A stretch of DNA of 64,000 nt from Thermus thermophilus (GTDB lineage Bacteria; Deinococcota; Deinococci; Deinococcales; Thermaceae): assembly GCF_019974155.1 (NCBI RefSeq), contig NZ_AP025158.1:1798001-1862000 (forward strand). The letters are read 5' to 3'. How positions within the stretch are numbered: position 1 is the stretch's first letter; the number at the start of each line of letters is the position of its first letter. A program made the translations under genes and the position numbers. The notes below the pieces were generated by a model. It saw only the letters and a list, made by a program, of their open reading frames with translations, had not been told where the DNA came from and ran no database searches. This document shows positions 30,654 to 46,293 of the stretch, piece by piece.

Positions 30654-30730
30654 GCGCCCGTAGCTCAGCAGGATAGAGCGGGGGCTTCCTAAGCCCTAGG
30701 TCGGGGGTTCGAATCCCTCCGGGCGCACCA
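30654..30730 (+). tRNA. tRNA-Arg (CCT), integration site
   Basis: 77 bases, full cloverleaf with acceptor GCGCCCG/CGGGCGC, anticodon stem GGGGC/GCCCT, loop TTCCTAA (anticodon CCT), T arm GGGGG-TTCGAAT-CCCTC, encoded CCA. Its 3' 46 bases plus one downstream G are repeated at 46203-46249, showing that a mobile element has integrated here and rebuilt the tRNA. Confidence 0.96.
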
Positions 30731-30731
30731 G
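30685..30731. repeat. attL: direct repeat copy 1
   Basis: 47-bp repeat identical to 46203-46249, starting in the anticodon stem-loop of the intact tRNA-Arg and running one base past CCA. Crossover occurs somewhere inside it. Confidence 0.95.
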
Positions 30732-30748
30732 CACCAGGACGCAATCCT

Positions 30749-30782
30749 CCCGCCCACGGAAGCGTGGGCGGGGCCTTTTTTA
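30749..30782 (+). terminator. Terminator after tRNA-Arg, element-borne copy
   Basis: 10-bp stem CCCGCCCACG / CGTGGGCGGG with loop GAAG, then GCC and a T-run. The same stem with loop CTTC occurs after attR (46261-46293). Being inside the element boundary, this copy was brought by the element and replaces the original terminator of the tRNA. Confidence 0.85.
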
Positions 30783-30802
30783 CCCCCATGTTCTACCCCC
30801 AT
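30781..30802. repeat. Paired TACCCCCAT sites near attL
   Basis: TACCCCCAT at 30781-30789 and 30794-30802. The same motif forms a phased array inside the other end of the element (46066-46107). Candidate arm-type binding sites for the integrase or its accessory protein. Confidence 0.5.
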
Positions 30803-30829
30803 AGCGCCAAGCTTCCCTCATGCGCCCCC

Positions 30830-31963
30830 CTACGCCTGCCCCCTGGGCCGGCTCGTCAGCTCCTCGGGGTCCACGACCCAGGCCGCCCGCTCGTGGGCCA
30901 GGAGGTGGCGGTAGATGCCCAGGGTGATGCTGGGGTTGGCGTGGCCCATGCGCTCCGCCACAAGCTCAAGGGGGGCCCCGTTGGCGAGGAGCAGGCTTCC
31001 GTAGGTGTGGCGAAGGTCGTGGACGCGGATGGGGGGAAGGCCCAGGCGGGTGGCCATCTTCCGTAAGGCGTGCCCCAGGGTGTGAGGGTTCAAGGGCCCC
31101 CCCGTCCGCCCCGGAAACACCCAGGCCAACCTGAGCTCCCCGGGCGGGATCCCCAGCCCGAGGAGCTCCTGGTAGCGGGCGCGAAGGCGGGCCAGGGTGG
31201 CGTGGGGGATGGGGATGCTCCGCCTCGAGGAGGGCGTTTTCGGCTCGGTGAGGACCCCCCGCCCGCCCATCGCAGTCCACGCCCGGCGCACATGGAGGAC
31301 CCCCGCCTCGAGGTCCACGTCCTCCCACCGGAGCGCCAGCGCCTCGCCCGCGCGCAGCCCCAGGGCCAGGCAGAGGCGCAGGGCCATGCCCACCTCCCAG
31401 GTGGGCCACGCGTCAAAGGCCCGGAGCAAGGCCTCCACCTCGTGGGGCTCGAGGGCGCGGCCCACGGGGGGCCTTGAGGGGGCCTCCACCCGCACGGCGG
31501 CGGTGGGGTCCCGCGCCACCAGCTCGAGGGCCAGGGCCTCCCGGAACACGGCCCGGGCCCGCTCCAGGACCTTCCTCAGCGACCTGGGAGAAAGCCCCTT
31601 GCGGGCCAGGGCGTCTAGAGCGGCGCGGATGTCGCTTGGGACGATGTCCTGGAGGCGTTTGTTGCCCAGGGTGGGCAGCAGGTACCGCAACTCTCTCTCG
31701 TAGGCCCGGATGGTGGTGGGGCCACGCACCCGGGCCTTGCGCTCAAGCCAGGCCTGGGCGAACTCGGCAAAGGTCCGGGGGTCGCGCTTAGGGATGAGCC
31801 CCAGCCGGTGCTTGACCTGGTACTCCGCCGCCTTCGCCTGCGCCTCCTTGGCCGTCTTGCCGTAAAAGGAGCGGCGCAGGCGTTTGCCGTCCTCCACCAC
31901 ATACACCCGGACCTCCCAAAGGCCCGAGGCGTGGCGGCGCGGTTTAGCGCCCCGTTTCGGCAC
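30830..31963 (-). CDS. int: Tyrosine-recombinase integrase of the element
   Basis: 377 residues. N-terminal AP2-like arm-binding segment (VYVVEDGKRLRRSFYGKTAKEAQAKAAEY), core-binding domain (about 65-150), and catalytic domain with Arg in LGLRAGEALALRWEDVD, HxxR in VHDLRHTYGSLLLANG, His in MGHANPSITLGIY with the nucleophile Tyr in IYRHL. GTG start with Shine-Dalgarno GGAGGTG, overlapping the upstream XRE gene by 20 bases. Directly beside the tRNA copy it recombines, the usual layout of tRNA-integrating elements. Confidence 0.95.
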   Translation of the reverse strand: MPKRGAKPRRHASGLWEVRVYVVEDGKRLRRSFYGKTAKEAQAKAAEYQVKHRLGLIPKRDPRTFAEFAQAWLERKARVRGPTTIRAYERELRYLLPTLGNKRLQDIVPSDIRAALDALARKGLSPRSLRKVLERARAVFREALALELVARDPTAAVRVEAPSRPPVGRALEPHEVEALLRAFDAWPTWEVGMALRLCLALGLRAGEALALRWEDVDLEAGVLHVRRAWTAMGGRGVLTEPKTPSSRRSIPIPHATLARLRARYQELLGLGIPPGELRLAWVFPGRTGGPLNPHTLGHALRKMATRLGLPPIRVHDLRHTYGSLLLANGAPLELVAERMGHANPSITLGIYRHLLAHERAAWVVDPEELTSRPRGQA

Positions 31964-32228
31964 CTTCCACCTCCTCTACCCGCAGGAGCACACACAGGTC
32001 CACGGGCTCGCCCGTGAGCCGCTCGAGGCCCTCCAACACCTGGGCGAGCGTGCTGAGCCTAACGCTTTCAATCCTACCTGCGGCGATCGCGTAGACCGTA
32101 GACGGGTGCATTTCGGGCAAGAGCTTCACCAGCTTGTAGACGCTGAGCCCCCGCTCCTTCAGGTACTCCCGCAGTCGCAACCGAATGCGCTTCCGCCCCA
32201 TTGTCCGGTAGTCTACTACGTCAATCAT
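31944..32228 (-). CDS. XRE-family DNA-binding regulator
   Basis: Up to 94 residues; HTH of the XRE/Cro type (LKERGLSVYKLVKLLPEMHPSTVYAIAAGRIESVRLSTLAQVLEGLERLTGEPVD). ATG 32228 begins the longest frame, but ATG 32201 (MGRKRIRL, 85 residues) is eight bases after TAGACT (minus strand, 32210-32215) and would be a leaderless start, which I prefer. Two near-palindromic TAGT-containing sites flank the start region, suggesting autoregulation. Probably the lysogeny-type repressor of the element, co-transcribed with int. Confidence 0.8.
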   Translation of the reverse strand: MIDVVDYRTMGRKRIRLRLREYLKERGLSVYKLVKLLPEMHPSTVYAIAAGRIESVRLSTLAQVLEGLERLTGEPVDLCVLLRVEEVEGAETGR

Positions 32229-32245
32229 CTCCTTTACTAGACTAC
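32207..32245. promoter_or_regulatory. Divergent promoter/operator region of the XRE regulator
   Basis: GTAGTCTACTA (32208-32218) and TACTAGACTAC (32235-32245) are inverted copies with one mismatch. Each covers a -10 box: AGTCTA at 32210-32215 read leftward as TAGACT for the XRE gene, and TAGACT at 32238-32243 read rightward. The geometry resembles a two-operator repressor switch. Rightward product uncertain: a GTG at 32250 opens an 82-codon basic frame of doubtful reality. Confidence 0.55.
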
Positions 32246-32342
32246 TCTTGTGGAGCTAAAGCCCAGGTGGCCCAGGGGGGTGTGGGAAGGGAGCACCCTG
32301 CCCAAGAAGGGGCCGCCCCTCAAGCCCCTGCAAGCAAAAGGA

Positions 32343-32375
32343 CCTGCCTCCCTCGCCAAGCGCAAGGGAGGCAGG
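32343..32375. terminator. Perfect 11-bp hairpin
   Basis: CCTGCCTCCCT (32343-32353) and AGGGAGGCAGG (32365-32375) with an 11-base loop. No strong T-run; could terminate or attenuate the rightward transcript from 32243. Confidence 0.4.
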
Positions 32376-32404
32376 CTTGTGGTGCGGATGGGTCGCCGTG
32401 CAAG

Positions 32405-32485
32405 GCCTGGCCTTACCGCGCCAGCCGCGCCACGCCGGGCCACGCCTCGCCATGCCGGGCCGTGCCACGCCGCGCCAAGCCCCAC
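32405..32485. repeat. Imperfect GCCACGCC-type tandem repeats
   Basis: A run of short related units (GCGCCA, GCCACGCC, GGGCCACGCC, TCGCCATGCC, GGGCCGTGCC, ACGCCGCGCC) with a period near 10 bases. Composition is unlike neighbouring intergenic DNA. May be a protein-binding region or slippage-expanded sequence. Confidence 0.5.
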
Positions 32486-32730
32486 AAAGCCGAGGTAGAA
32501 GGCTTGGCTTTCAGGGTCTGGCGCGCGAGCCCATGCGCAGGCACGTCCTCAGTATGCCCCGACGCTCCCCCCTGTCAACGGATAACGGTCCTTATCCCGT
32601 TCCCCTTTCGCCCTCCGCCTCTCCCGCAGGTGGGCCGGGCTACCCTCCCTGGGAGTTTGCCTCCGCAGCCGCCTCGTCATCAAAGGCGCCCTGGAACAGT
32701 TCTGGTATAAGCTGGTGACGGAGGCCCGCC

Positions 32731-33093
32731 GTGCTTAAGGAAGGACCAGGAAAGGAGCTCCTCGAGGGGGTGGCCACGCTCCTGAGGATGGACCCCATGA
32801 GCTACGTGGCCTTCGGCCCCTACTGGTGGTGGATCAAGCGCTGGCTGCAAGAGGCCTACGGGGAGGACTCCCCCGTGCAGGGGGACGCGGACGACCCCGT
32901 GGCCCGGGAGCACCTGGCCGCCTACTGGAAGGGGGACTGGAAGAAGCTCTGGAGGGCGGCCATCCGCCACTACCAGCAGAAGGTGGCCTGGGGAGAACGC
33001 TACGAGCCCCACAGCTACATGCCCCCTCACGAGGAGGCCTACGTGGTGAACGACCCGGACATGGTCCCGCCCTCCCTGCCCCGGATGCGGTAG
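32731..33093 (+). CDS. Hypothetical small acidic/aromatic protein
   Basis: 120 residues, unrecognised. Trp- and Tyr-rich centre (AFGPYWWWIKRWLQEAYG, AAYWKGDWKKLWRAAIRHYQQ) and an acidic loop; no membrane segment or known motif. GTG start supported by GGAGG six bases upstream and a TATAAG box at 32705-32710. Lies alone on + between the regulator and the DarTG pair; third-position GC is typical of a real gene. Could be an element-specific accessory protein. Confidence 0.65.
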   Translation: MLKEGPGKELLEGVATLLRMDPMSYVAFGPYWWWIKRWLQEAYGEDSPVQGDADDPVAREHLAAYWKGDWKKLWRAAIRHYQQKVAWGERYEPHSYMPPHEEAYVVNDPDMVPPSLPRMR

Positions 33094-33104
33094 CTAACGC
33101 GTAG

Positions 33105-33127
33105 CCCCCGGGGCGGTTTCCCGGGGG
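33105..33127. terminator. Hairpin between convergent genes
   Basis: CCCCCGGG / CCCGGGGG (8-bp stem, loop GCGGTTT) between the ends of the 120-residue gene and darG; a possible bidirectional terminator without clear T-runs. Confidence 0.45.
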
Positions 33128-33153
33128 TCGGGGAAGGCGCGGGCGCGAGTGGC

Positions 33154-34236
33154 CTAGGCTTCCTGGGCCACATTGGCGGGCGGTTTAGGAAGCCGGTCCC
33201 GCCACTCCTCGGGGCGGAGGGCCCCCCGCTTCAAGAGGGCGTCCAGGGCTACCTGAATGTGGGTCCGGGGAAAAGTGGCCTTGCGGGGGCTCCAGGTTTG
33301 GAGCAACTTTTGCAGGGTGGCCCAGTCCCGGGCCCCTTCGTGGCGCACGACCCAGTGGACCGTGGCCAAAAGCTCTAAGCCATAAGGGGTCTCAAACCCC
33401 TTGACCCATTCCGCCGCCCGGGTGGCGGCCTCGTCGGCCTCAGGGTGGTCGGCCAAGTAGAGGATGGCCTCGTTCAGGGCCTGAGGCTCGAGGCGTATCT
33501 GGGAAGCCCCCGCGCGGTCTCCGAAGCCCCGGATGTAGTGGCCCTCGAGGCGGACCAGCACGTGGTTCAAGGGCTCGGCGTAGGGGCCAAACCGCTGACG
33601 GACAAAGGCAAGCCTAAGATCCAAACCCGCTTCCTGAAGGAAGTAGGCCAGCTTTTGGGCCTCGAGGCGGCCCAAGGGTTCCCCAAGCGCCCCATAAAGG
33701 CCGAAGAGCTTGAGCAGGGCGGCCCGGGCAGGGGTGAGGCGGGGCTTGGTCCCTTGGGGAGCGATGGGGTGGGTCTGGGGTTCCCCCGGAGGTTCGTAGA
33801 CCAAGACCTCCACGTCCTCGAGGGGCGCCAGGGCCTCCTGGATGCGCCGCTTGACCTCGGGCCAGGGAAGCTTCCCGTTCCCGGCCCCCAAGGGGGGCAA
33901 GGCGATGGAGCGGACCCGAAGCTCCCGGATTTGGCGCACCAGGTCCTTTAGCCCCTCCTCCACGTACTCCATGCGGGCGGGATGGCGCCAGTGCTTCTTA
34001 GTGGGGAAGTTGAAGATGTAGCGGGGCTGGGCCAGGGGCCCCCGGTCGTGGACGAAGATGCGGCCAATCTGGACCTCGCCCCGCTTACAGGCCTGCACGT
34101 AGGCCTGGTAGTTGTCCGGGAAAGCCCGCTTGAACTGCAAGGCCACCCCCTTGCCCATGACCCCCACGGTGTTCACCGTGTTGACCAGGGCTTCCACTGG
34201 GGCTTTGAGGAGGTCGCCTCGTACGAAGCGGAGCAT
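33154..34236 (-). CDS. darG: DarG antitoxin: DNA ADP-ribosylglycohydrolase (macrodomain)
   Basis: 360 residues. N-terminal macrodomain (about 1-155): MLRFVRGDLLKAPVEALVN, NTVGVMGKGVALQFK, IALPPLGAGNGKLPW, the signature of DarG, which removes ADP-ribose from thymidine in DNA. A C-terminal domain (about 180-350) supplies the second, protein-binding antitoxin activity in the family; it contains LEAQKLAYFLQEAG, reminiscent of Panacea/DUF4065-type domains (inference). ATG 34236 preferred over TTG 34257 because AGAAGGG precedes it. Downstream of darT with a short gap, the standard toxin-first order. Confidence 0.92.
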   Translation of the reverse strand: MLRFVRGDLLKAPVEALVNTVNTVGVMGKGVALQFKRAFPDNYQAYVQACKRGEVQIGRIFVHDRGPLAQPRYIFNFPTKKHWRHPARMEYVEEGLKDLVRQIRELRVRSIALPPLGAGNGKLPWPEVKRRIQEALAPLEDVEVLVYEPPGEPQTHPIAPQGTKPRLTPARAALLKLFGLYGALGEPLGRLEAQKLAYFLQEAGLDLRLAFVRQRFGPYAEPLNHVLVRLEGHYIRGFGDRAGASQIRLEPQALNEAILYLADHPEADEAATRAAEWVKGFETPYGLELLATVHWVVRHEGARDWATLQKLLQTWSPRKATFPRTHIQVALDALLKRGALRPEEWRDRLPKPPANVAQEA

Positions 34237-34244
34237 AGACCCTT

Positions 34245-34874
34245 CTAATAGTACCAACTCCGGCGCACCCGCACCGGGGGATGGGGTAGACCGGGGAACC
34301 GGGCGAGGACGGACTCCACCTCGGCCTTAATGGACTCGTCTATGACGCCGATCTCCTCAATCAACCCCCAGGGAAAGAGGCCCTTGACCAGGAACTCGGC
34401 CTGCTTCTTCTCCCGGCTTTCGGCCCAGTAAGTAGACCGAATGGCCTCCCAGTCCAAAGCCTTCAGGTGCTCCAACTTGTGGAAGAAGCGAACGTACTGA
34501 ACGGCCGCGTGGCGGTCGGTGAACACGAAGGGCAGACGCTCTTCCGCCACCCTTTGGGCGGTGGAGACCAGGTGCAGGATGGGGCGCTGGCCCCCTTGGT
34601 ATTCGGTAGATCCGGTGTGGATAGCGTAGAGCATGGGAGAGCGGGGGCAGAAGTAAAACGGCACGTAATCGTGGAGCTTGCCCCTCGGGCCCACGGGCAC
34701 CACGACTTCTGCCCGGCGGGCCTGGATGTGCCCGTAGGCCACGTTCTGCCGCTTGGGGGGCTTTTGGGATTGGGGGAGGAGGCCCCCCTTTTGGAGGATG
34801 CCCTCGAGGTTTTCCAGGTGGGTGATGTGGTAGATGCGCGTGGGCACCGGATAGACCGGGCTTTGCTGTGGCAT
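34245..34874 (-). CDS. darT: DarT toxin: DNA thymidine ADP-ribosyltransferase
   Basis: 209 residues. ART fold: RIYHITHLENLEGILQKGGLL, VPFYFCPRSPMLYAIHTG, VFTDRHAAV, and E160 in REKKQAEFLVKG, which is the position of the catalytic glutamate described for Thermus aquaticus DarT. It attaches ADP-ribose from NAD+ to thymidines of single-stranded DNA, blocking replication, and acts as an anti-phage system with DarG. ATG 34874 is six bases after a perfect TATAAT (34881-34886, minus strand), so the message should be leaderless; the frame before it is not coding-like. Confidence 0.93.
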   Translation of the reverse strand: MPQQSPVYPVPTRIYHITHLENLEGILQKGGLLPQSQKPPKRQNVAYGHIQARRAEVVVPVGPRGKLHDYVPFYFCPRSPMLYAIHTGSTEYQGGQRPILHLVSTAQRVAEERLPFVFTDRHAAVQYVRFFHKLEHLKALDWEAIRSTYWAESREKKQAEFLVKGLFPWGLIEEIGVIDESIKAEVESVLARFPGLPHPPVRVRRSWYY

Positions 34875-34880
34875 GGTTCC

Positions 34881-34900
34881 ATTATACCTGGGGATATACT
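34881..34900. promoter_or_regulatory. Divergent -10 boxes of darT and mod
   Basis: TATAAT read leftward (34881-34886) six bases before darT ATG, and TATACT read rightward (34895-34900) seven bases before mod ATG. Only 33 bases separate the two starts, so both mRNAs are probably leaderless and the promoters share space. Confidence 0.7.
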
Positions 34901-34907
34901 CTTCCTC

Positions 34908-36350
34908 ATGCCAGCCTTGGAGTGGATCGGCAAGCAGGCGGTGGTGCGGCACCACTTGGAAGTCCCTTACCGCATCCTCGCCCCGGTGCCCGAACTCTCC
35001 TACGGTGAGGGCGAGAACCTTTTGGTGGAGGGGGACAACCTCGAGGCCCTAAAGGCCCTCCTCCCTGAGTACCGGGGGCGGGTGAGGCTCATCTACATAG
35101 ACCCCCCCTACAACACGGGCAACGAGGGCTGGGTCTACAACGACAACGTGAGCAGCCCCGAAATCCAGGCCTGGCTGAAGAAGGCGGTAGGCCCGGAAGC
35201 GGAAGACCTCTCCCGGCACGACAAGTGGCTTTCCATGATGTATCCCAGGCTCAGGCTCCTCCACGAGCTTTTGCGGGAAGACGGAAGCCTGTGGATGAGC
35301 ATAGACGACAACGAGGTCCACCGGGCGAGGATGCTCCTAGACGAGATTTTTGGGCCTCAAAATTTTGTAGCCACGGTGGTTTGGGAACGTTCGGATAGTC
35401 CTAGAATGGACGCTTCCTATTTTTCGGTGCGACACGATTACGTTTTGGTGTATGCGAAAAACAAACCTTTTTTCAGGGTAAAGAGATTGCGTGACAACGG
35501 GGGAGCACCTTCGCACTACAACCGTATTGACGAACACGGAAGACGTTATTATCTGAAGCCTCTTCGGGCTATGGGACAGGCAGATAGGCGTGAGGACAGG
35601 CCGTCAATGTACTACCCGATAGAGGCCCCAGATGGTAGTTTGGTTTATCCCCAAAAACAAGATGGTTCGGCTGGGAGATGGCGCTGGTCAAGGGAAAAAC
35701 TTCTCCAGAAGCAACATCTCTTAGAGTGGGTAAGGGGACCTGAGGGTTGGACTCCCTACTATCGCATCTATTATGCAGGAGATCAGGGTACGGAACGCCC
35801 TCCCGAAACCATCTGGTTTCACACAGAAGTGGGCAGCAACCGAACAGCGGCTAAGGAAACGAAAGAAGCCTTCGGTGGCCAAGACCTATTTGACACACCA
35901 AAACCCTTAGGGCTTCTCCAGCGCATCCTGCAGATTGCCACCAACCCCCATGACGGGGACATCGTCCTGGACTCCTTTGCCGGTAGCGGCACCACGGGGC
36001 ACGCGGTGCTCAAGCAAAACGCCGAGGACGGGGGCAACCGGCGCTTCATCCTGGTGGAGCTGGACCCTAGGATCGCACAGAACATCACCCGCAAGCGCCT
36101 GGAGTACGCCGCCAGGACGCATGGGGGCGGCTTCCGGTACCTGCGCCTGGGGGAACCCCTCTTCACCCCAGACGGGCGCATCCGGGAAGGGGTGGACTAC
36201 CTCACCTTGGCCCGGTACGTCTACTACCGGGAGACGGGAGAACCCTTGCCCGAGACCTTCACCCCCCCTCTTTTAGGCGTGTCCCAGCGCGGGGTGGCGG
36301 TCTACCTCCTCTATAACGGGGTGCTGAAGGACAAGTCCCCCAAGGGCTGA
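34908..36350 (+). CDS. mod: Type III restriction-modification Mod (adenine methyltransferase), C-terminus lost to IS
   Basis: Site-specific DNA adenine-N6 methyltransferase and target-recognition subunit. 480 residues remain: catalytic motif IV DPPYNT at about 65-70 precedes the SAM motif FAGSGTTG near 358, a beta-class order typical of type III Mod. Between them lies the target-recognition region (about residues 145-330), markedly AT-richer than its flanks. ATG 34908 chosen; the longer frame upstream is antisense to darT. An IS4-family element inserted after codon 480 supplies a TGA as its first bases; the original last 49 codons lie at 37521-37680. Catalytic motifs are intact, so activity may persist. 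Confidence 0.92.
   Translation: MPALEWIGKQAVVRHHLEVPYRILAPVPELSYGEGENLLVEGDNLEALKALLPEYRGRVRLIYIDPPYNTGNEGWVYNDNVSSPEIQAWLKKAVGPEAEDLSRHDKWLSMMYPRLRLLHELLREDGSLWMSIDDNEVHRARMLLDEIFGPQNFVATVVWERSDSPRMDASYFSVRHDYVLVYAKNKPFFRVKRLRDNGGAPSHYNRIDEHGRRYYLKPLRAMGQADRREDRPSMYYPIEAPDGSLVYPQKQDGSAGRWRWSREKLLQKQHLLEWVRGPEGWTPYYRIYYAGDQGTERPPETIWFHTEVGSNRTAAKETKEAFGGQDLFDTPKPLGLLQRILQIATNPHDGDIVLDSFAGSGTTGHAVLKQNAEDGGNRRFILVELDPRIAQNITRKRLEYAARTHGGGFRYLRLGEPLFTPDGRIREGVDYLTLARYVYYRETGEPLPETFTPPLLGVSQRGVAVYLLYNGVLKDKSPKG
36338..36346. repeat. 9-bp target duplication, left copy
   Basis: CCCCAAGGG, identical to 37521-37529 on the other side of the IS. Both copies lie in the mod reading frame. Confidence 0.9.
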
Positions 36351-37520
36351 GCTCTCATCACTTTCCTCCCCCCAGTTCCTGAAGCAACCTGACCAGCTCC
36401 TCCACCACTGCTTCCCTCCAAGGCGGGGGCCCCTGGGCCAGGGCGATCCGGCCCAGACGGAAGAGGCTTTGCCGCTCGGGATGGGCCAGAAGCCGGGGAA
36501 GCCATTCCCTGCCCTGCAAGCGCGCCCCCAGAAGGACCAAGAGCGCCATCCCCAAGGCCAGAAGCCATAACCACCCCCTGAGGCTCGCCCCCGTCCGCAG
36601 CCGATGGCGGTCCAGCCCAAACCCCTGCCCCTTCAGGTCCCTAAACCCCTCTTCAATCCACATCCGCCACCCATAGGGCGGCTCCCCCCCAAAAGGGCCC
36701 GAATAGGCCAGATACCAGGGATCCCGACCCCCTGGGTACACCAGGAGGGTGACTTCTACCCCCTCCCCACCGTGTCCGAAAAGGCGGACCTCCTCCCGCA
36801 GGGGGTGGACCACACGCTGGTAGCCCTCCTTCAGGGGAAGGCGCTTCCCCCCTTGGGGTTCCACCTCCCGGTTCTGCCGCAGGCGGATGAGGAAGCCCAT
36901 GCCCCACCCCTGGAGCTTTCGCATCAGGGAGACCCGGTCAAAGCCGCGGTCCAGGAGGAAGAGGGGGGTATATCCCAGGTCCTGGACGGCGCGGCCCAGG
37001 CGGTGGAGGAACTCCTCCTCCACCCGGTTTTGACTGGGGAAAGGGGAGAGGGGGTGAAGAGCGAAGGCCACCACCAGGGCCCTTCCCTTGAGGGGAAGGG
37101 CGGCCACCAGGGCTTGGTGCCTACCGTCCTCTGTGAAGGTCCAGTCCACGATGAGGGGGAGGGGGCGGTCTTTGGGGAAACGAGGGACGAGGAGGGGGAG
37201 GAGGGCTTCGGTGAGGGCCCAGGGGTCTTGCAGGGTGGGGTGATGGAGGAAGCGCCAGAGGCGATTGAGGCGGCTTTGGGCCAGGGTGGGGAGGGGGGTT
37301 CTGCGGGCGAGGTCGGAGAGGGTGGGGTCCAGGGGGGTAGTGAGGAGGGTGGACAGGAAGAGGGCGAGGTTGGAGCGGATGGTTTTCCTGAGGGAGGCGA
37401 AGACCTTATGGACCCAGAGGGTGATAACTTGGGAAAGGGGGGTGGTGGGCGGCACACCTTACTTACCCCCCTCTTCTCTTCCCTTGTCAAGCCCCAGCCC
37501 TCAAAGTGATGAGAGCTCAG
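36347..37520 (-). mobile_element. IS4-family insertion sequence, 1174 bp
   Basis: Perfect 18-bp terminal inverted repeats (CTGAGCTCTCATCACTTT at 36347-36364 and its complement at 37503-37520), flanked by a 9-bp target duplication and containing one transposase gene on -. All ends are intact, so the insertion is probably recent and may still be mobile. Confidence 0.96.
36358..37455 (-). CDS. tnp: IS4-family DDE transposase
   Basis: 365 residues. First Asp in PLIVDWTFTEDGRHQ, second in PLFLLDRGFDRVSL, and the IS4 hallmark Y-(2)-R-(3)-E-(6)-K in YGWRMWIEEGFRDLKG. GTG start at 37455; the TGA stop lies within the left terminal repeat. Full length, no frameshift. Inserted opposite to mod. Confidence 0.95.
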   Translation of the reverse strand: MPPTTPLSQVITLWVHKVFASLRKTIRSNLALFLSTLLTTPLDPTLSDLARRTPLPTLAQSRLNRLWRFLHHPTLQDPWALTEALLPLLVPRFPKDRPLPLIVDWTFTEDGRHQALVAALPLKGRALVVAFALHPLSPFPSQNRVEEEFLHRLGRAVQDLGYTPLFLLDRGFDRVSLMRKLQGWGMGFLIRLRQNREVEPQGGKRLPLKEGYQRVVHPLREEVRLFGHGGEGVEVTLLVYPGGRDPWYLAYSGPFGGEPPYGWRMWIEEGFRDLKGQGFGLDRHRLRTGASLRGWLWLLALGMALLVLLGARLQGREWLPRLLAHPERQSLFRLGRIALAQGPPPWREAVVEELVRLLQELGGGK

Positions 37521-37680
37521 CCCCAAGGGGGGAAACGCCCTCACCCGGGAGGTCCTGGCCCACCTGCCCCCTTTTGACGGCCCCAAGGTGGTCTACGGCA
37601 CCTCCTGCCGCCTGAACCCCGCCACCCTGAAGGCTTTGGGCATCACCTTCCGCCACATCCCTTATGAGGTGGCCCAATGA
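37521..37680 (+). pseudogene. Severed 3' end of mod
   Basis: Starts with the second CCCCAAGGG and continues the mod frame: GNALTREVLAHLPPFDGPK...HIPYEVAQ, 49 codons then TGA. The stop overlaps the res start (ATGATGG), showing that res was translationally coupled to mod before the IS landed. No own start codon is evident. Confidence 0.9.
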
Positions 37681-40163: not shown

Positions 40164-40295
40164 CCCCGCTTGGCTCCGAGTCCTACGCGGAAGGATTAGG
40201 GGGGCCTGGAGCCCGCCCAAGACCTCCGGCGCCTCGGGCGATTGAAGGGCGGTTCAGAACCGGTTCGGGCGGGGCCTCGAGGGATGGGCTACCGA

Positions 40296-40865
40296 TTACC
40301 CTCCGCCCGCCTCGCCTGGAGCCTGAGGAAGGCTAGCCTGCCCCTGGACCTCCAGGAGAGCCGTCAGCAAGGGCACGCACCGCACCCCGAAGGCGAAGGC
40401 CACATAGGGTAGGCGTGGCCTTCCCGTGATTAGGCCACTCGCCCCGTCCAGCTGGGGCACCACGTGCCTTTCCTGGGTAATCAGGGTGAGGTTGTGGACC
40501 TTGGCCAGGGCCACCAGGGTCGGGTCAGCGCCTCGGAGAAAAGGCTCAGCGTCCTCAGGGGCATAGTGTTCCCTCACAAAGTGGGCCACCTTCTCCAAGG
40601 CGTCAAAAAAAGCTTCGGTAACTTCCAGAAGCTTGTACTGCCCGTCTAAGGACTTCAGGAGGTCATGGCCCGGACCCCGCTTTCGCAAGATCTCGTCCCT
40701 CACTTCGCGCCCTAGCCGAAGGATGCCCCTTTTGATTCCGTCCCGGAACCAGGCCTCCAGATGGGCCTTGGCCTCCTCTGGTGATCTCCCGAGGGCCTTA
40801 GCCAGGGCTTCCAGGAAGCCTGGGACGAAGGGAGTGATGATGGCGTTGGCGTCAAGTAGGTACAC
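40296..40865 (-). CDS. PIN-like (DUF4411-type) putative toxin
   Basis: 189 residues. Starts VYLLDANAIITPF, the first acidic motif of PIN-type RNases, with further acids in EVRDEILRK and the C-terminal GADPTLVALAKVHNLTLITQE. Overlaps the upstream XRE-ImmA/IrrE gene by 14 bases (GTG 40865). The two-gene arrangement matches DUF4411/ImmA toxin-antitoxin pairs, so this is probably the RNase toxin. RNase activity is inferred. Confidence 0.75.
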   Translation of the reverse strand: MYLLDANAIITPFVPGFLEALAKALGRSPEEAKAHLEAWFRDGIKRGILRLGREVRDEILRKRGPGHDLLKSLDGQYKLLEVTEAFFDALEKVAHFVREHYAPEDAEPFLRGADPTLVALAKVHNLTLITQERHVVPQLDGASGLITGRPRLPYVAFAFGVRCVPLLTALLEVQGQASLPQAPGEAGGG

Positions 40866-41985
40866 CCTTGCCCTCCAGGAAGGCCCAGGCCGTCCTGAGG
40901 TCCACATTGAGGAGAAAGGCCACGTCCTTGGCGTCCACTTCCCCCTCTAGGGCCGCCCGCCTGACCTCCCGCACGAAGGCGGGGCTGTTCTGGACCACCA
41001 GGGTCTTCCAGAAGTCCCCGCCCCCCTTCCTGGGACGGGGAGGCGCGGTCTTCCGCAGGGCCTCGAGGGCCTCCATGTACCCCTCCCGGTGCACAAGTTC
41101 CAAGCGAAAGGCCCGCTCCAGGGCGGCCCTCGGGCTCACGAAGAAGCACCGGGAAGCCTCCCGGGCGGCCTCCAAGGGGGGAAGGTGCCCGTTCCAAGCC
41201 ACGCGAAACTCCTCCTCGGGCATCAGAAGCTCCGCGGCCACGTGGTCCGCCCAGATCTCCACCTCGTCCCGGGCCTCCTCCTCCAGCCCGCCCTCCAGTC
41301 CCCCTTCTCCCCGCCACACGTGGGCCAGCTCGTGGGCCAGGGTGAAGACCTGGCGGGAAGGGTGCTCGCGGGCGTTCAGGAAGACCACGGGGGCCACGGG
41401 GTCCACCAGGGCGAAGCCGGAGAACTCCTCCGGGTCGTAGGTTCTCCGGGTGTGGGTGCCCACGTGCCCTTGCCGGAGGACCAGAACCCCAAGGGCTTCC
41501 GCCCCGTCCGCAAGGGCCTTGAGGAAGCCTTGATGGTCCCGGGCCCTCCTCCGCAAGGCTTCCACTTCCAGGAAGGTCGCCATCTCGCGGGCCACCTCCG
41601 CCGGGGAAGCGCCCTTGCCGCTTCCCACGAAGGGAAGGGGCTTCCCCTTGCGCTCCCGCCACCACTCCTGCTTACGCCGCGCGTCGTGGTAGGCCTCGAG
41701 GAGCTCCGGGCTTGGGGGGGCTTGCCGCCCTCTTCCCCGACGAAAGTCCCTCAAAGGAAGCTTGACCTCGGGCGGGGGCAGGAGGAGGTGCCCCAAGCCC
41801 AAATGAAGGGCCTGGGCCAGCTTCAGGGCCTGGGGGTAGGTGGGCTTCTCTTTCCCCTCTAGCCAGCGCTCCACCTTCTCCGGCTTGACCTGGACCTTCC
41901 GGGCGAGGCTTTCTGCCTCGAGGCCCGCCCAGTCCATGGCCCACCGGAGGGTTTCTGGCTTGATGGGTACCTCTACCGTTTTCAT
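40852..41985 (-). CDS. XRE HTH + ImmA/IrrE metallopeptidase, putative antitoxin
   Basis: 377 residues from ATG 41985 (earlier ATG 42009 also possible). N-terminal HTH (AMDWAGLEAESLARKVQVKPEKVERWLEGKEKP), then a central DUF955 zinc-peptidase domain with FTLAHELAHVWRGE and downstream acidic ligand region DEVEIWADHVAAELLMP. In mobile elements ImmA cleaves repressors; in pairs like this one it acts as regulator/antitoxin. A third possibility is control of the element's own repressor during DNA damage. Confidence 0.82.
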   Translation of the reverse strand: MKTVEVPIKPETLRWAMDWAGLEAESLARKVQVKPEKVERWLEGKEKPTYPQALKLAQALHLGLGHLLLPPPEVKLPLRDFRRGRGRQAPPSPELLEAYHDARRKQEWWRERKGKPLPFVGSGKGASPAEVAREMATFLEVEALRRRARDHQGFLKALADGAEALGVLVLRQGHVGTHTRRTYDPEEFSGFALVDPVAPVVFLNAREHPSRQVFTLAHELAHVWRGEGGLEGGLEEEARDEVEIWADHVAAELLMPEEEFRVAWNGHLPPLEAAREASRCFFVSPRAALERAFRLELVHREGYMEALEALRKTAPPRPRKGGGDFWKTLVVQNSPAFVREVRRAALEGEVDAKDVAFLLNVDLRTAWAFLEGKGVPT

Positions 41986-42022
41986 CCCGGCCCCCCTAGG
42001 GGACTCCATTCTACCCCCGGCC

Positions 42023-42322
42023 TTACGCTGGCAACGCACCCTTGCTCAAGGCCTCGAGGAGCCGGGCAAGTTCCTCCGGGGGGAAGCGGTTGCCCGCCAT
42101 GTTCCAGGCCCCCTGAACGCCGTGGACTTCGAGGACCGCCCCCACCTTGCGCATGACCTCGGGAGGGAGGGGGCGGGGCGGCGCGGCAAACCAGGCGGCC
42201 CGGATTTCGCGCCCGGTGGGCCGGACGGGCACCGCCCGATGGGGTTCCTCGCTCCCGGTGCAGACCTCTGGCGCAACAGGGGGCTCCACTACCCGGTCAG
42301 GCCGAAACCGCCGGTACCCCAT
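42023..42322 (-). CDS. Small hypothetical protein
   Basis: 99 residues, not recognised. N-terminal half basic and proline-rich (MGYRRFRPDRVVEPP...REIRAAWFAAPPRPLPP), C-terminal half helical and amphipathic (EELARLLEALSKGALPA). It begins right beside the iteron array and ends upstream of the ImmA/IrrE gene (ATG 41985), so it may be in one transcript with the TA pair. Confidence 0.5.
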   Translation of the reverse strand: MGYRRFRPDRVVEPPVAPEVCTGSEEPHRAVPVRPTGREIRAAWFAAPPRPLPPEVMRKVGAVLEVHGVQGAWNMAGNRFPPEELARLLEALSKGALPA

Positions 42323-42338
42323 ACGACCTCCTCCACGC

Positions 42339-42603
42339 GGCTATGGCTACGGTGGCTACTTTGGCTACTAAGGGGAATTTTCTCCGTCCTGGACGGAGAA
42401 AATCCCGTAGCCACAGGGTGGCTACGGAGTGGCTATTGTGGCTACGATCGGCTACGGTAGCCGGGGCCCCGGGATGGGGCTCCCCATGACCGTAGCCGTT
42501 CCGTAGCCAACCGTAGCCAACAGTAGCCAGGGGGTGGCTACTGTTTTTTTGCCGTCCTGGACAGCGCTTGTGGGGTTCAGTAGCCAAAATAGCCACTATA
42601 GCC
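42339..42603. repeat. 18-copy GGCTAC iteron-like array
   Basis: Hexamer GGCTAC/T or its complement GTAGCC occurs at 42339, 42345, 42354, 42363, 42407, 42420, 42431, 42440, 42450, 42457, 42492, 42503, 42513, 42523, 42536, 42580, 42589 and 42598. Within clusters the spacing is 9-11 bp, about one helical turn, as for arrays of a DNA-binding protein. No gene lies here. It sits directly downstream of the replication genes, so a replication origin, partition site or operator is plausible. Confidence 0.8.
42377..42403. promoter_or_regulatory. 27-bp palindrome inside the iteron array
   Basis: ATTTTCTCCGTCC - T - GGACGGAGAAAAT, perfect 13-bp arms around one base. The core GTCC-T-GGAC recurs at 42554-42562 after a run of seven T. 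Likely a dimer binding site or origin cruciform. Confidence 0.65.
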
Positions 42604-42612
42604 ACCCCCCGC

Positions 42613-44175
42613 TCAAAGCGCCCGGGGGTTCAACTCCCAGACCTCCCTGCGCCCCTCCCGATGGACGCGAACGTACCCGTGGGCCTCGAGGAGCCGCAGG
42701 GCCTCCCGCACGGCCTGGGTGGTGCGCCCCACGGCCCGGGGGCCGTAGCGCACCACGTCCGGCGTGGCGATGGGCGACGCGCCCCCCCGCGCCCGCTCCC
42801 GCAGCCACTCCAGGAGGCGCGCGGCCCGCCGAAGGGGCTCGGGCACCCGGGCCCCCTCCATCAGCCGCCGGTGTTCCAGCATGTACCACTCGGCTAGGGC
42901 GATGCCCCGCTCCATGTGCTCGGGGCCCAGGCGGGTGAGGGAAGGGTCCTCGAAGAGGCCCAGGACCAGGGCGAGGCGCACCGCGTGCTCAGGCGTTTTG
43001 GCTGCGAACGCCCGGGCCTCCCCAAGTTCCTCCTTCTGCGCCTCCAGGTGCTCAAAAAACGCCACGTACAGCCGCTTGGCGGCGGGGTGCAGGGGGAGGC
43101 TGGGGAGTTCCAGCCCCCGCACCCGGGCCTCGGGGTCGTCCCGGACGTTCCCGGCGGTGGCCTCGAGGAGGGCGTCCAGACGGCCCTGGTAGGCGATGTA
43201 GGCGGGGTTTCGCGTCAGGTCCTCCTCCACGTAGCGCCGGGGGCCCACCTGGGGGGCCCAGGCGGTGAAGAAGCGCGCCAAGAGTCCCTGGTTTCGCACC
43301 AGGCGGTCCTCGAGGAGGTCCCGGGCCACCTCGGGTTGCATGCCCAGGTGGACGCTGAGCCGCCTCCCGAGGAGGAGGCGCTTCCCGTCCCCCTGCCGGG
43401 CCCGCTCCACTCCCTGCCCGTCCCAGAGGCGGCTCAGGACGGAGATGGTGTAGAGGCGCCTCTCCTCGCTCATGGCGTGGCCGCCCAGGAACACGCCGGC
43501 CTCGGAGACGAACAGCCCCACGCTGGGCCAGTCGTCCGCCAGGGCGCTCACGATGGCCTCGGTGGTGGCGTCCGAGAGGAGGAACATCCCGCTCCACGGC
43601 CTGGCCGGGGGGAGGCCCAGGGCCTTCAGGGCCTCGGCCCGCTCCTCCCGGGAGAGGCCCTTCTCCCCCTGGATGCGCCGGCGCTCCGCCTCCCAGGCCT
43701 CGCGCTCCGCGCGCCAGGCCTCCTCGGCCAAGGCGGCAACCTCCGCCTTCGCGGTCTGCCACGCCCGGGCGGGCAGGAGGGCGAGGCGGTCCAACTCCGT
43801 TTTGCGCTCCCCCGAGTCGGCCACGGTCAGGAAAAACAGGCTCGCCGGGTACGTCCGCCCGTCCACCACGGCGTTGGCGATGCCCTGGGCCCCCAGGGAC
43901 GCCCCGGCGAGGAACGCGGCGGCGGTCAGGGCCTCCGCGCCCTGGACCACGCGCAGGGCCTCCCGCACCACGCCCTCCAGGGGCCCGAGGGCCTCGAGGG
44001 GGTAGGGCTCGGGCGGGTCGGCCTCCCGGAACAGGGGCAGGGGCTCCGGCCAATCGTCCACGTCCTCGGGCCGCACGTAGGGGGCGTTGCGCAGGGCCTC
44101 GAGGGCCTTCTCGGGGTCCAACTCATCGGCCTGTTGCGAAATACCGTTCAAAACCTTAGAGTGTTCCTTGAGCAT
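42613..44175 (-). CDS. DUF3987 protein, helicase-like replication protein of the element
   Basis: 520 residues. ATG 44175 follows GAGGAGG. Pattern EALTAAAFLAGASLGAQGIAN then ASLFFLTVADSGERKTELDRL, where GERKT sits at the P-loop position (normally GxGKS/T), then SGMFLLSDATTEAIVSAL, LFVSEAGVFLGGHAM and a C-terminal winged-helix-like region (ATPDVVRYGPRAVGRTTQAVREALRLLEAHGYV). DUF3987 proteins accompany primases on phages and integrative elements. Overlaps the primase gene by 20 bases. Confidence 0.8.
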   Translation of the reverse strand: MLKEHSKVLNGISQQADELDPEKALEALRNAPYVRPEDVDDWPEPLPLFREADPPEPYPLEALGPLEGVVREALRVVQGAEALTAAAFLAGASLGAQGIANAVVDGRTYPASLFFLTVADSGERKTELDRLALLPARAWQTAKAEVAALAEEAWRAEREAWEAERRRIQGEKGLSREERAEALKALGLPPARPWSGMFLLSDATTEAIVSALADDWPSVGLFVSEAGVFLGGHAMSEERRLYTISVLSRLWDGQGVERARQGDGKRLLLGRRLSVHLGMQPEVARDLLEDRLVRNQGLLARFFTAWAPQVGPRRYVEEDLTRNPAYIAYQGRLDALLEATAGNVRDDPEARVRGLELPSLPLHPAAKRLYVAFFEHLEAQKEELGEARAFAAKTPEHAVRLALVLGLFEDPSLTRLGPEHMERGIALAEWYMLEHRRLMEGARVPEPLRRAARLLEWLRERARGGASPIATPDVVRYGPRAVGRTTQAVREALRLLEAHGYVRVHREGRREVWELNPRAL

Positions 44176-45193
44176 CAGTTTCCTCCTCTCCCGGGGCGGC
44201 CTCCACCCGCCCCGCAAGCTTTTTCGCCACCAGAACATCAAGCCAGTCCGCGCCGTCTGGCGGCACGGCCAGCTTCACCGCGATCCCCAGCGCCAAAAGC
44301 TGCTTCGCCAGTTTTTTCCCAGCTTCCACCCCCCTCTCGTCCCCGTCAGCCGCGATCAAGACCTCTCCCACCCCGGGTGGGGGCTCCCACGCCTCGAGGC
44401 CCCCCGCGCTCACGGCGGCCCAGGCGGGAAGGCCCGCGGCCTCGCGCACCGCGAGGGCGGTCTCCACCCCCTCGGCCACGGCCAGGACCCCGCCCTCCGG
44501 GGCGTAGAGGCGGATGGCCGCCCCCTTCAGGCCCCCCTCGAGGACCGCCTTGGTGAGCTTTTTGGGGCTCCCCACCGGGGCCTTCCCCCTCCCGTCCGGG
44601 CTCAGATAGACGCGGTGCAGGGCCACCAGGCCGTGCTGAGTGTGCTCCACCCGGGCGAGGAGGGCGGGGAAGGCCCCCAGGATCTTCCCCTCCTCCCGGT
44701 ACTCCAGGCCGGGGTGGAGGCGGAGGTTCTGGAGGCCGGGGAGGACGGCCTCGAGGCTCAGGCCCCGGGCCTCGAGGTAGCGCCGGCCCAGCTCCGCGCC
44801 GGGGCGGTCAAGGGGGACGGCCCGGGCCCAGATGGCCTCGAGGAGCCTCCGCCGCCCCTCGTCCGGTCGGGGCTCGGGGCGGGGAGAGGGCGCGGGCCGA
44901 ACGCGGCGGAAAACCTTCCCCGCAAGCTCCTCGTGGGAGTCGGGAAACAGGTCGCGCCACGCAAGGCCTAGGGCCTCGAGGACGGCCTCCGTGGGGCAAC
45001 CCGCGAAGCAATGGATCAAGAGCCGCCCCTGGGGGCTGAGGCAGATGGAGAGGCTGGGATCCCTGTCCTCGTGGGCGGGGCAATGGCCGATCCACCGGCC
45101 CTGGCCCGAAGGGCGAGCCCGGGTGGCCCAGAGGATGTGCTCGAGGACCCCCTCGGGGCCTAGGGTGCGAGTACCGGCGGGCACCGGGTTCAT
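44156..45193 (-). CDS. CHC2 zinc-finger and Toprim primase of the element
   Basis: 345 residues. N-terminal CHC2-type zinc finger (IGHCPAHEDRDPSLSICLS...IHCFAGCP) and a C-terminal Toprim domain with Glu in LAVAEGVETALAV and DxD in IAADGDERGVEAG. Synthesises RNA primers, probably at an origin on the element. ATG 45193 chosen for GGAGGTGA just upstream. Cotranscribed with DUF3987. Confidence 0.88.
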   Translation of the reverse strand: MNPVPAGTRTLGPEGVLEHILWATRARPSGQGRWIGHCPAHEDRDPSLSICLSPQGRLLIHCFAGCPTEAVLEALGLAWRDLFPDSHEELAGKVFRRVRPAPSPRPEPRPDEGRRRLLEAIWARAVPLDRPGAELGRRYLEARGLSLEAVLPGLQNLRLHPGLEYREEGKILGAFPALLARVEHTQHGLVALHRVYLSPDGRGKAPVGSPKKLTKAVLEGGLKGAAIRLYAPEGGVLAVAEGVETALAVREAAGLPAWAAVSAGGLEAWEPPPGVGEVLIAADGDERGVEAGKKLAKQLLALGIAVKLAVPPDGADWLDVLVAKKLAGRVEAAPGEEETDAQGTL

Positions 45194-45198
45194 CGTGC

Positions 45199-45378
45199 TC
45201 ACCTCCCTCGCCCCTCGAGGGCGGGGGCGGTTTTTTCCGCCCCCTCCTCTTCGCGGTGCAGGTCCCAATCAACCGCCTCGTTGGCCGCGTACAGCGCGTC
45301 AACGCGCCCCTCTGGCGTGAGCACCCGGAGAAGTGCCCGAATAACGGCCAACAACAGCGCGTCAATCGCCCTACGCAT
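45199..45378 (-). CDS. Small helical protein, 59 residues
   Basis: Unrecognised short gene: MRRAIDALLLAVIRALLRV..., then VDALYAANEAVDWDLHREEE and an Arg/Gly end. ATG follows GGAGGGTA and overlaps the stop of the upstream HTH gene; its own stop lies six bases before the primase ATG. The tight packing in the replication operon supports a real gene. Confidence 0.6.
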   Translation of the reverse strand: MRRAIDALLLAVIRALLRVLTPEGRVDALYAANEAVDWDLHREEEGAEKTAPALEGRGR

Positions 45379-45574
45379 TACCCTCCTCCCCGGGCAGGCG
45401 GCCGTGCTCCAGAAGGGCCTCGAGGACGCTGCGGTGGATGAAGAGCTTACGACCGATTTTCACGCCGTAGCGCCGCATGAACCGCCGCACGCCGTCCCGC
45501 CCCAGGCCCAGTTGCGCGCCCAGGATGGGGGCAACCTCGTTGAAACCCAGAAGCTTCTTCTCGCCCTTCATCAC
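45371..45574 (-). CDS. Small excisionase/MerR-type HTH protein
   Basis: 67 residues: LLGFNEVAPILGAQLGLGRDGVRRFMRRYGVKIGRKLFIHRSVLEALLEHG, the layout of helix-turn-helix 17 / excisionase-like proteins (HTH, then wing with Lys/Arg, then helix). First gene of the replication block; overlaps the 59-residue gene by eight bases. Likely an element regulator. Confidence 0.7.
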   Translation of the reverse strand: MMKGEKKLLGFNEVAPILGAQLGLGRDGVRRFMRRYGVKIGRKLFIHRSVLEALLEHGRLPGEEGNA

Positions 45575-45713
45575 GCTCGCACCCTAGCGGCCATTGCCGT
45601 CAGGTTGCGTAGGGGGTAGGAGAGGGCCGCCCGTTCCCGGTTTCCAGGGCGGGGTTGCAAGGTTGCGTTTGGGTGGATAAGCTGAACCTTGCGCATCAGC
45701 CGGATCGCGCGTA

Positions 45714-45746
45714 CGCTCCCACGCCCCCCGTGGGAGCGCCTTTTTT
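45714..45746 (+). terminator. Strong rho-independent terminator on +
   Basis: Perfect 10-bp stem CGCTCCCACG / CGTGGGAGCG, five-C loop, CC and six T. It points rightward although every annotated gene here reads leftward. A TTGCCG (45594-45599), 17 bases, TAGGAG (45617-45622) pair upstream could start a transcript of about 115 bases that ends here. Confidence 0.7.
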
Positions 45747-45942
45747 ACCTCCTTCCCCCCAATCCCCTTTCCAGAAACGCCTCGAGTTCCTTGTACGGGA
45801 TGAGCGTGCGCGCCCCGATTTTCATGGCCTTGAGCTCCCCGCGCCAGATCGCGCGGTAGATCGTAACCCTGCTCACCGAAAGCAAACGCGCGGCCTCGTT
45901 CACGCTCACGGCCAGGGGGGGCTGCCCGGTGCTCTGTTTCAT
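45745..45942 (-). CDS. xis: Excisionase-type HTH protein (AlpA/Xis-like)
   Basis: 65 residues: SVNEAARLLSVSRVTIYRAIWRGELKAMKIGARTLIPYKELEAFLERG, a classic helix-turn-helix 17 excisionase fold. Located near attR at the opposite end from the integrase. Probably directs excision or activates the element; name assigned by position and fold. Confidence 0.75.
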   Translation of the reverse strand: MKQSTGQPPLAVSVNEAARLLSVSRVTIYRAIWRGELKAMKIGARTLIPYKELEAFLERGLGGRR

Positions 45943-46202
45943 CTGCTATCCCTCCGCTTCCACTTGTACCCCAACATATAGTGGTGTCGCAAGTGGCTAC
46001 CTCTACATGTTGTGGTTACCCGCCCCTCGGGGGGCGGGAAAGAGGTTAGCCCTTTTCCAAAGTTTTACCCCCCTTTTTACCCCCATACTACCCCCACGGC
46101 TACCCCTAAACGGAGAAACACCAGGAAACAGCCAAGCGAATAAATCGCGTCCCCGTGCCCCTCCATGGGTCCCCACGGAGCACAGGAAACGTTTTCCAAG
46201 GA
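45943..46202. other. Element right-end region without genes
   Basis: 260 bases upstream of the excisionase gene. Contains hairpin CCCGCCCC-TC-GGGGGGCGGG (about 46019-46038), a phased TACCCC array (46066-46107) and AT-richer patches (ACATATAGTGG, CTACATGTTGTGG) that could hold the xis promoter and accessory-protein sites. No convincing coding frame. Confidence 0.6.
46066..46107. repeat. Phased TACCCC array near attR
   Basis: TACCCCCC (46066), TACCCCCAT (46078), TACCCCCAC (46089) and TACCCCT (46101), spaced 12, 11 and 12 bp, about one helical turn. The same motif is doubled next to attL (30781, 30794). Candidate arm-type sites for integrase or excisionase. Confidence 0.6.
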
Positions 46203-46249
46203 CTTCCTAAGCCCTAGGTCGGGGGTTCGAATCCCTCCGGGCGCACCAG
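46203..46249. repeat. attR: direct repeat copy 2
   Basis: 47-bp repeat of the tRNA-Arg 3' half (anticodon loop through CCA plus one base), identical to 30685-30731. This is the original chromosomal 3' end displaced by integration; it has no acceptor 5' half and is not a functional tRNA. Confidence 0.95.
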
Positions 46250-46260
46250 AACGTAACCCT

Positions 46261-46293
46261 CCCGCCCACGCTTCCGTGGGCGGGGCCTTTTTT
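46261..46293 (+). terminator. Original tRNA-Arg terminator, now beyond attR
   Basis: Stem CCCGCCCACG / CGTGGGCGGG with loop CTTC followed by GCC and six T. Stem identical to the element copy at 30749, loop reverse-complementary. Between here and 46413 I see no convincing gene. Confidence 0.8.

Follow-up and report, generated by a model that had tools for sequence, protein, structure and literature searches.

The phage-inducible chromosomal minimalist islands (PICMI) of Vibrionaceae are satellites without capsid genes that are packaged as concatemers, and the model used to search for them, as given in the part of the report cited here, consists of int, AlpA (PF05930 or PF12728), a primase (DUF3987 and DUF5906) and fis (PMC10803314). 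In phage-inducible chromosomal islands (PICI) the replication origin lies immediately 3' of rep and is formed by two iteron sets around an AT-rich region, an arrangement that the authors of the section cited state to be unseen in other replicons (PMC6092414). Thermus itself harbors ICETh2, presented in the cited text for T. thermophilus HB27 as an 11.3-kb element in tRNA-Val with a 47-nt attachment (att) sequence, int and xis, a primase-polymerase and a helicase, a peptidase and, in some strains, a toxin-antitoxin pair; this element excises experimentally (PMC7693054). The subject of this report is a 15.5-kb element found within a window of 64,000 nucleotides (G000:C1:1798001-1862000) from a 2.17-Mb Thermus genome, and positions in Table 1 are those of the window.

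As far as its sequence tells, the element is integrated in tRNA-Arg(CCT), has moved between species, and carries core integration and replication genes, a symmetrical array of iterons, defence cargo and the gene of a phage virion protein. It is very probably a mobile replicon with defence cargo, and on our analysis the odds that it is a phage satellite are about even. The fuller reading that we put forward, at a probability of roughly 0.4, is that Thermaceae hold a family of satellites with minimal members of 6-8 kb and defence-loaded members of 13-16 kb, whose origins of mirror-paired iterons (within 1 bp) would have kept their layout while the iteron sequence was swapped, and whose Thermus branch would exploit the P1-like Lalka phages by means of a captured head protein, Ulx.

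Integration and movement between species

The two att cores lie 15,518 bp apart from start to start, and the excised circle would have the same length. Chance can be set aside for this pair because the 47-bp match is exact, falls at a tRNA and has a tyrosine integrase next to it. The element supplies a terminator-like stem behind the tRNA, the displaced original being found at 46261-46284. Clusters of TACCCCC lie inside both ends on the same strand (2 + 2 in the copies of G007 and G017, introduced below), placed as integrase arm sites would be, and are putatively such sites.

The initial annotation had outlined an integrative element in this tRNA, bounded by exact repeats, with an integrase by one and an excisionase-type gene by the other, with a primase, a DUF3987 gene and an iteron array within, and with no capsid or transfer genes; the outline was confirmed. 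It had overlooked the defence cargo, the insertion sequence (IS) that cuts mod, the phage-derived segment and the five putative arm sites. Pfam was run on 17 open reading frames (ORFs) of the element and 2 flank genes, PADLOC on 10 element ORFs with the replication genes left out, and PHROGs on 10 element ORFs; none of the ORFs scanned with these sets matched a capsid, terminase or transfer family. A conjugative element was rejected, with no relaxase, coupling protein, type IV secretion system or other transfer family among those ORFs, and so was a complete prophage, with no structural family.

Mobility, for which empty sites in other Thermus genomes had been proposed as the check, is supported. 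Among 27 Thermus genomes examined at tRNA-Arg(CCT), three carry the element: G000 (the genome of the window), G007 and G017 (T. parvatiensis RL). The site was read without the element in 22 of the 27, and it is empty in at least 15. In 14 (G001, G002, G004, G005, G009, G013-G016, G018, G020, G023, G024, G026) hera lies next to the tRNA with no element between them, and in G006 the attR-flank sequence directly follows the tRNA (98% over 101 bp), after which come other DNA and the end of the contig. The stretches fetched from G003, G010, G011, G012, G019, G022 and G025 contain one att copy each and no proteins of the element, and the site was not found in G021, whose genome is 65% complete. The elements of G007 and G017 are 99.08% identical over 12,919 aligned columns, whereas their host flanks are 85.6% (transketolase) and 87.3% (hera) identical, a difference that shows horizontal transfer between species of Thermus; the G000 element is 96.7-98.2% identical to both in large shared blocks.

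Longer tRNA-to-hera intervals in G003, G007, G008 and G011 were considered as sister elements and rejected, with other genes inside: transport, FGGY kinase, FAD oxidoreductase and transposase genes by Pfam in G008, and thiamine/sulphate-type genes (G007, G011) and cas-type genes (G003) named by inspection of ORF starts. The intervals of G010, G012, G019 and G022 gave no match to the element's own proteins, the sole search made there. G008 holds a different, 65-kb island at tRNA-Arg(CCT) (G008:C1:1273866-1338730); this island carries genes for transport and for an FGGY kinase, its integrase is 66% identical to that of the element, and a partial second att copy lies 65 kb away.

The suggestion that such an element had not been described in Thermus survives in part. 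The same element is present in the published T. parvatiensis RL chromosome and the related ICETh2 class has been described; among the matches listed from open-licence literature, none describes the Thermus element as a phage satellite. The T. parvatiensis RL genome paper, in the section cited, reports a 23.2-kb "integron" phage region with attL/attR, an integrase and a tRNA; it gives no coordinates, and identity with the element is not established.

Replication genes and putative origin

Integrase, xis, primase, DUF3987 and origin array are all intact in G000 and G007. The first codons of the DUF3987 ORF are probably not translated, as a TAG lies near the start in G007 and G017. Solved-structure searches with DUF3987 returned chance matches only, and distant matches of the primase include Sphingomonas.

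Straight after the DUF3987 stop comes an array of about 260 bp in which G000 has nine copies of the 5-mer TAGCC/GGCTA per direction, at offsets 14, 23, 32, 89, 99, 109, 120, 155 and 205 (<) and 73, 159, 169, 178, 189, 246, 255, 264 and 270 (>). Eight mirror pairs fall about a single axis with deviations of 1 bp at most, and GC is 0.79 at the centre and 0.53-0.55 in the 40-bp gaps. A pattern scan found the outer inverted triplets in 14 of 186 sequences (1.48 Mb, overlapping), all with the element module; 1.28 Mb of window sequence shuffled by mononucleotides contained none.

Is the array shared with relatives? The DUF3987 profile has matches in 10 of 111 genomes of the phylum, which are long only in the three Thermus copies (that of G017 in two pieces), G065 (two) and G056, and partial in the rest. 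G065 and G056, which we label as a Meiothermus-like genus, hold their three genes in elements of 5.8-8 kb with an integrase and a primase. Two of these elements lie in tRNA-Ala and tRNA-Gly, with repeats of 105 bp (98%) and 77 bp (exact); one of the three integrases is interrupted, and HTH_17 is confirmed by Pfam in one element. An array stands in the same position in each of the three, with TTAGCA or TTCGCA replacing TAGCC: the outer triplets are spaced 9 and 8-9, a gap of 41-58 follows (in some with one reversed copy), the inner sets have spacings of 9-12, and in each array seven mirror pairs fit a single axis to within 1 bp. The resemblance in layout falls short of identity, the first array of G065 being without reversed copies and having gaps of 57 and 58 bp. 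Iterons number 15 in G065 and G056 against dinucleotide-shuffle maxima of 7-11. A cognate pair of initiator and iteron would leave such a pattern, in which the layout is kept and the iteron sequence changed.

A second array in G056 was rejected as an independent case, being contained in an inverted duplication of 393 bp with 96% identity to the first; the duplicated array stands beside the integrase of that element (L179:12223-12612). Behind a minimal 5.8-kb relative at L177:10702-17202, the start of that relative, xis included, is present once more (92%, 738 bp); no tRNA was found at this locus, and the tandem looks as if two elements had accreted. In proteins of G052, G053, G056, G058 and G066 the match to the DUF3987 profile is confined to its N-terminal ~140 positions, and their genes lie near clusters of CACTGA/ACTGAC with 8-12 copies in 300 bp (L191, L192, L193, L195, L198); these are perhaps another branch with its own iterons.

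A phage head gene in the element

The part of PMC9024508 cited lists Ulx among the head proteins of P1, with a role in helping DarB to localise, and a second source, in the passage cited, names it last in the ordered loading of Dar proteins into heads and links loss of DarA/Hdf to small heads (PMC12810830). Among PHROGs, the "Ulx-like anti-restriction" group matches 36 residues of the element's ulx ORF at 9.6e-8. At E 1e-3, Ulx matches are confined to the three element carriers among the 27 Thermus genomes and to three Lalka phages among 50,697 phage records. The gene lacks a full darB beside it, and since darB and ulx stand in the phage in the order seen in P1, transfer from phage to element is the simpler direction. 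Synonymous divergence between the element and phage copies is 0.05-0.08 and nonsynonymous divergence 0.007-0.015. Between G000 and Lalka27a, 4 of 10 changed codons are nonsynonymous while 79% of sites are (P 0.009, on small numbers and with the phage branch included); between G000 and G007 the count is 2 of 6 (P 0.02, also on small numbers). No promoter was predicted before ulx on its strand. Upstream lies a second repeat array (Table 1), around which a 504-bp stretch is 96-97% identical in G007 and G017.

Defence cargo and insertion sequence

DarT and DarG family genes are adjacent. DarT aligns to PDB 7omv (6e-80). Where the 7omv chain has Ala, DarT has retained a Glu, in the context KKQAEFLV; we take this Glu to be the catalytic one and the crystallised chain to be an active-site mutant. 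The darG region is 77% identical to DNA of phage phiMa, and most of darTG is gone from G007 and G017, where the two outer ends and a fragment remain. A DarTG locus of phiMa is noted in the cited part of PMC11437467. In G025 (C3:40524-73451), an integrase, a capsid protein 50% identical to that of Lalka and a DarT lie within 33 kb, a possible DarTG-carrying prophage.

The type III restriction-modification (RM) system has a Mod with DPPY and a Res with helicase and nuclease motifs. The Mod C-terminus is lost in G000, and Mod reads intact in G007. A 100% identical copy of the IS lies in an ICETh2-like element of the same genome. Two solved structures, at E 2.4e-4 and 2.8e-4, are relatives of the DUF4411 protein, which is presumably PIN-like, and the M78 protein also scores against the PADLOC models CapP and RmrA.

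Table 1. Features of the element and its target site (window positions; HTH, helix-turn-helix)
Feature	Position	Strand	Basis or remark
tRNA-Arg(CCT), integration target	30654..30730	+	ARAGORN; 3' half restored by the element's own copy
attL core, 47 bp	30685..30731		Exact repeat, overlaps 3' half of the tRNA
Palindromic terminator-like stem behind tRNA	30749..30772		Supplied by the element
Two TACCCCC(AT) repeats, putative integrase arm sites	30781..30802	+	Starts 30781/30794; also in G007, G017
Tyrosine integrase	30830..31963	-	PF00589 2.8e-27; H-x-x-R and Y motifs
Cro/C1-type HTH, probable repressor	31944..32228	-	Pfam, PHROGs
Second, GC-rich 10-bp repeat array	32416..32481		Between HTH gene and ulx
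Phage-derived segment: darB end, whole ulx, tail	32670..33129	+	92-94% DNA identity to Lalka phages
Ulx-like protein	32731..33093	+	114/118 aligned residues (97%) identical to phage Lalka27a
DarG antitoxin, macro domain	33154..34257	-	1.7e-125 (PADLOC/Pfam)
DarT toxin	34245..34874	-	5.4e-72 (PADLOC/Pfam); likely start 34874
Type III Mod, truncated by IS	34908..36350	+	Lacks last 49 residues of the 560-residue G007 ORF
Mod target-recognition region	35388..35910	+	No DNA match in G007/G017 (match stops 35387, resumes 35911)
IS, 1,174 bp, DDE_Tnp_1 transposase	36347..37520		18-bp exact inverted repeats, 9-bp target duplication
Type III Res	37677..40163	+	Pfam, PADLOC, motifs
DUF4411 protein, probable toxin	40296..40907	-	Pfam
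HTH + M78 (HELAH) regulator/antitoxin	40852..42039	-	Pfam, PADLOC
98-aa protein	42023..42322	-	No family (Pfam, PHROGs)
Mirror-symmetric iteron array, putative origin	42344..42604		TGGCTA/TAGCCA core
DUF3987 helicase/initiator	42613..44241	-	PF13148 1.2e-70
Primase: CHC2-like zinc finger, DUF7146, Toprim	44156..45268	-
Small HTH_17-like protein	45371..45574	-	Pfam E 0.019; relative in G056
HTH_17 excisionase / AlpA-like protein	45745..45942	-	PF12728 6.3e-16; PHROG excisionase 1.6e-9
Three TACCCCC repeats, putative arm sites, other end	46066..46095	+	Starts 46066/46078/46089; two in G007, G017
attR core, 47 bp	46203..46249		Exact copy of attL core

The satellite reading and its alternatives

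How might such a satellite work? Int and the HTH_17 protein would excise the 15.5-kb circle, and the DUF3987 helicase and the primase would load at the iterons and replicate it. A P1-type myophage resembling Lalka may then package the DNA, probably as concatemers in the manner of PICMI satellites, while the element's Ulx could enter the head or tune Dar loading, and so shield satellite DNA from type I restriction or weaken the helper. DarTG, the type III RM system and the M78/DUF4411 pair would guard host and element against other phages. Lalka8 and Lalka27a have a tRNA-Ala attachment sequence, as stated in the part of PMC11437467 cited, and so would not compete for the tRNA-Arg(CCT) site.

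A phage satellite is favored over an ICETh2-like element because int, HTH_17, primase and DUF3987 with an origin behind rep reproduce the PICI/PICMI layout; the minimal relatives of 5.8-8 kb speak for it too, as does defence cargo of a kind common to phages, such as darG. The initial annotation's suggestion of a phage satellite has gained a phage-derived virion-protein gene, a satellite-type core and a PICI-like origin position; no terminase, capsid gene or packaging site was found. Several results count against it. No terminase, capsid-size gene or other head gene was found in the element. A packaging site shared with Lalka27a outside ulx and the integrase did not emerge: the best further BLAST match scored 46.4 bits, where two control stretches from the window gave 44.6 and 42.8, and 18-mers common to the element and this phage number 15 against 21 and 19 in the controls. 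No Lalka-type capsid gene was found in the three carrier genomes, though the helper need not be resident. The Meiothermus-like relatives are without Ulx. No relative of either DUF3987 or Ulx turned up in pattern-based scans of IMG/VR, which yielded a single 41% fragment for the primase and integrases no more than 37% identical. In G017 both DUF3987 (in two pieces) and Res are frame-shifted. Unlike PICI origins, the array has no AT-rich region between its inner iteron sets. Finally, the 14-15 iterons of G000 and G007 do not exceed dinucleotide-shuffle maxima of 16-17; for these two it is the layout, not the count, that would carry the argument for an origin.

Could the element instead be of the ICETh2 kind, a non-conjugative element that excises and replicates by itself, spreads by natural competence or ICETh1-type transjugation, and acquired ulx from a phage as anti-restriction or anti-phage cargo? 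This is quite possible, though we lean away from it. ICETh2 has the same plan and the excision to go with it. G000 also carries an ICETh2-like element, at tRNA-Arg(TCT) (G000:C1:1454981-1468300; L082:5982-19300), with a Prim-Pol, a neighboring P-loop protein (a helicase by inspection) and an integrase 58% identical to that of the element studied here. NurA, taken here as a component of ICETh1, occurs in 14 of the 27 Thermus genomes, G000 and G007 included, but was not found in G017. The replication genes are nevertheless a different, non-Prim-Pol set: Prim-Pol PF09250 has no match in the element, the single match of G000 lying elsewhere, at 1462599-1463057. By megablast, the ICETh2-like DNA of G000 has only integrase and tRNA stretches in common with phages, and in an element of this kind ulx and the PICI-like position of the origin would each need a separate reason.

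A formerly mobile island, now fixed, decaying and retained for its toxin-antitoxin and restriction cargo, seems improbable. It would account for the mod gene cut by the IS in G000, the deletion of most of DarTG in G007 and G017 and the frameshifts of G017, yet the att repeats are exact, the core genes and origin are intact in two copies, and near-identical copies in different species indicate recent transfer. The ulx segment may also be read as a device that interferes dominantly with Lalka phages, Ulx acting as a stray component of the head that would upset Dar loading. We consider this doubtful: ulx does stand without darB, and the cited passage places Ulx last in the ordered loading of P1 heads, but the protein differs so little from that of the phage that it has the look of a functioning component, not of a poison. 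Interference can be combined with packaging or with its absence, so that its odds overlap with those of the other readings.

If the satellite reading is true, phage satellites would extend to another phylum and to hot springs, and a genetically tractable genus would offer a thermostable system of excision and replication. The arrays would give a clean case of an origin that keeps its layout and changes its recognition sequence, and a phage head antirestriction protein would be tied to a satellite, with a role for Ulx that is directly testable.

Comparison with known systems

With PICMI the element shares an integrase, an HTH_17/AlpA-type regulator, a DUF3987 replication protein, defence cargo, minimal forms of about 6 kb and the absence of any capsid or packaging gene. 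The markers PF00589, PF12728 and DUF3987 are present, DUF5906 has no Pfam match among the element ORFs, and the site is tRNA-Arg and not beside fis; three of the four mandatory PICMI genes are thus found if DUF3987 alone counts as the primase, on which the cited passage is silent. The Thermus element differs in its tRNA insertion, in having separate genes for a Toprim primase and DUF3987 and in reaching 15.5 kb. PICI, including the Staphylococcus aureus pathogenicity islands (SaPI), likewise have int, an AlpA-type gene, a primase/rep, accessory genes and an attachment site with int/xis, and they share the position and layout of the putative origin, directly 3' of rep with two inverted iteron sets; here there is no terS or capsid match, and rep is DUF3987.

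ICETh2 resembles the element in its tRNA 3'-end target, 47-nt att, int and xis, primase and helicase, peptidase, toxin-antitoxin genes (in some ICETh2 strains), similar size and lack of conjugation genes; it differs in having Prim-Pol and Hel in place of the Toprim primase and DUF3987, in using another tRNA and in that no ulx is named in the text cited. The Lalka phages, P1-like Thermus myoviruses, share about 450 bp with ulx at 92-94% identity and an integrase 52% identical; they are complete phages of 69-72 kb with a tRNA-Ala att, DarB and other replication genes, according to the part of the report cited (PMC11437467). With the DarTG of structures 7omv and 5m31 and of phage phiMa the element shares a complete DarT and DarG and the Glu in KKQAEFLV, the difference being that here the pair rides on an integrative element and has been lost from two sister copies.

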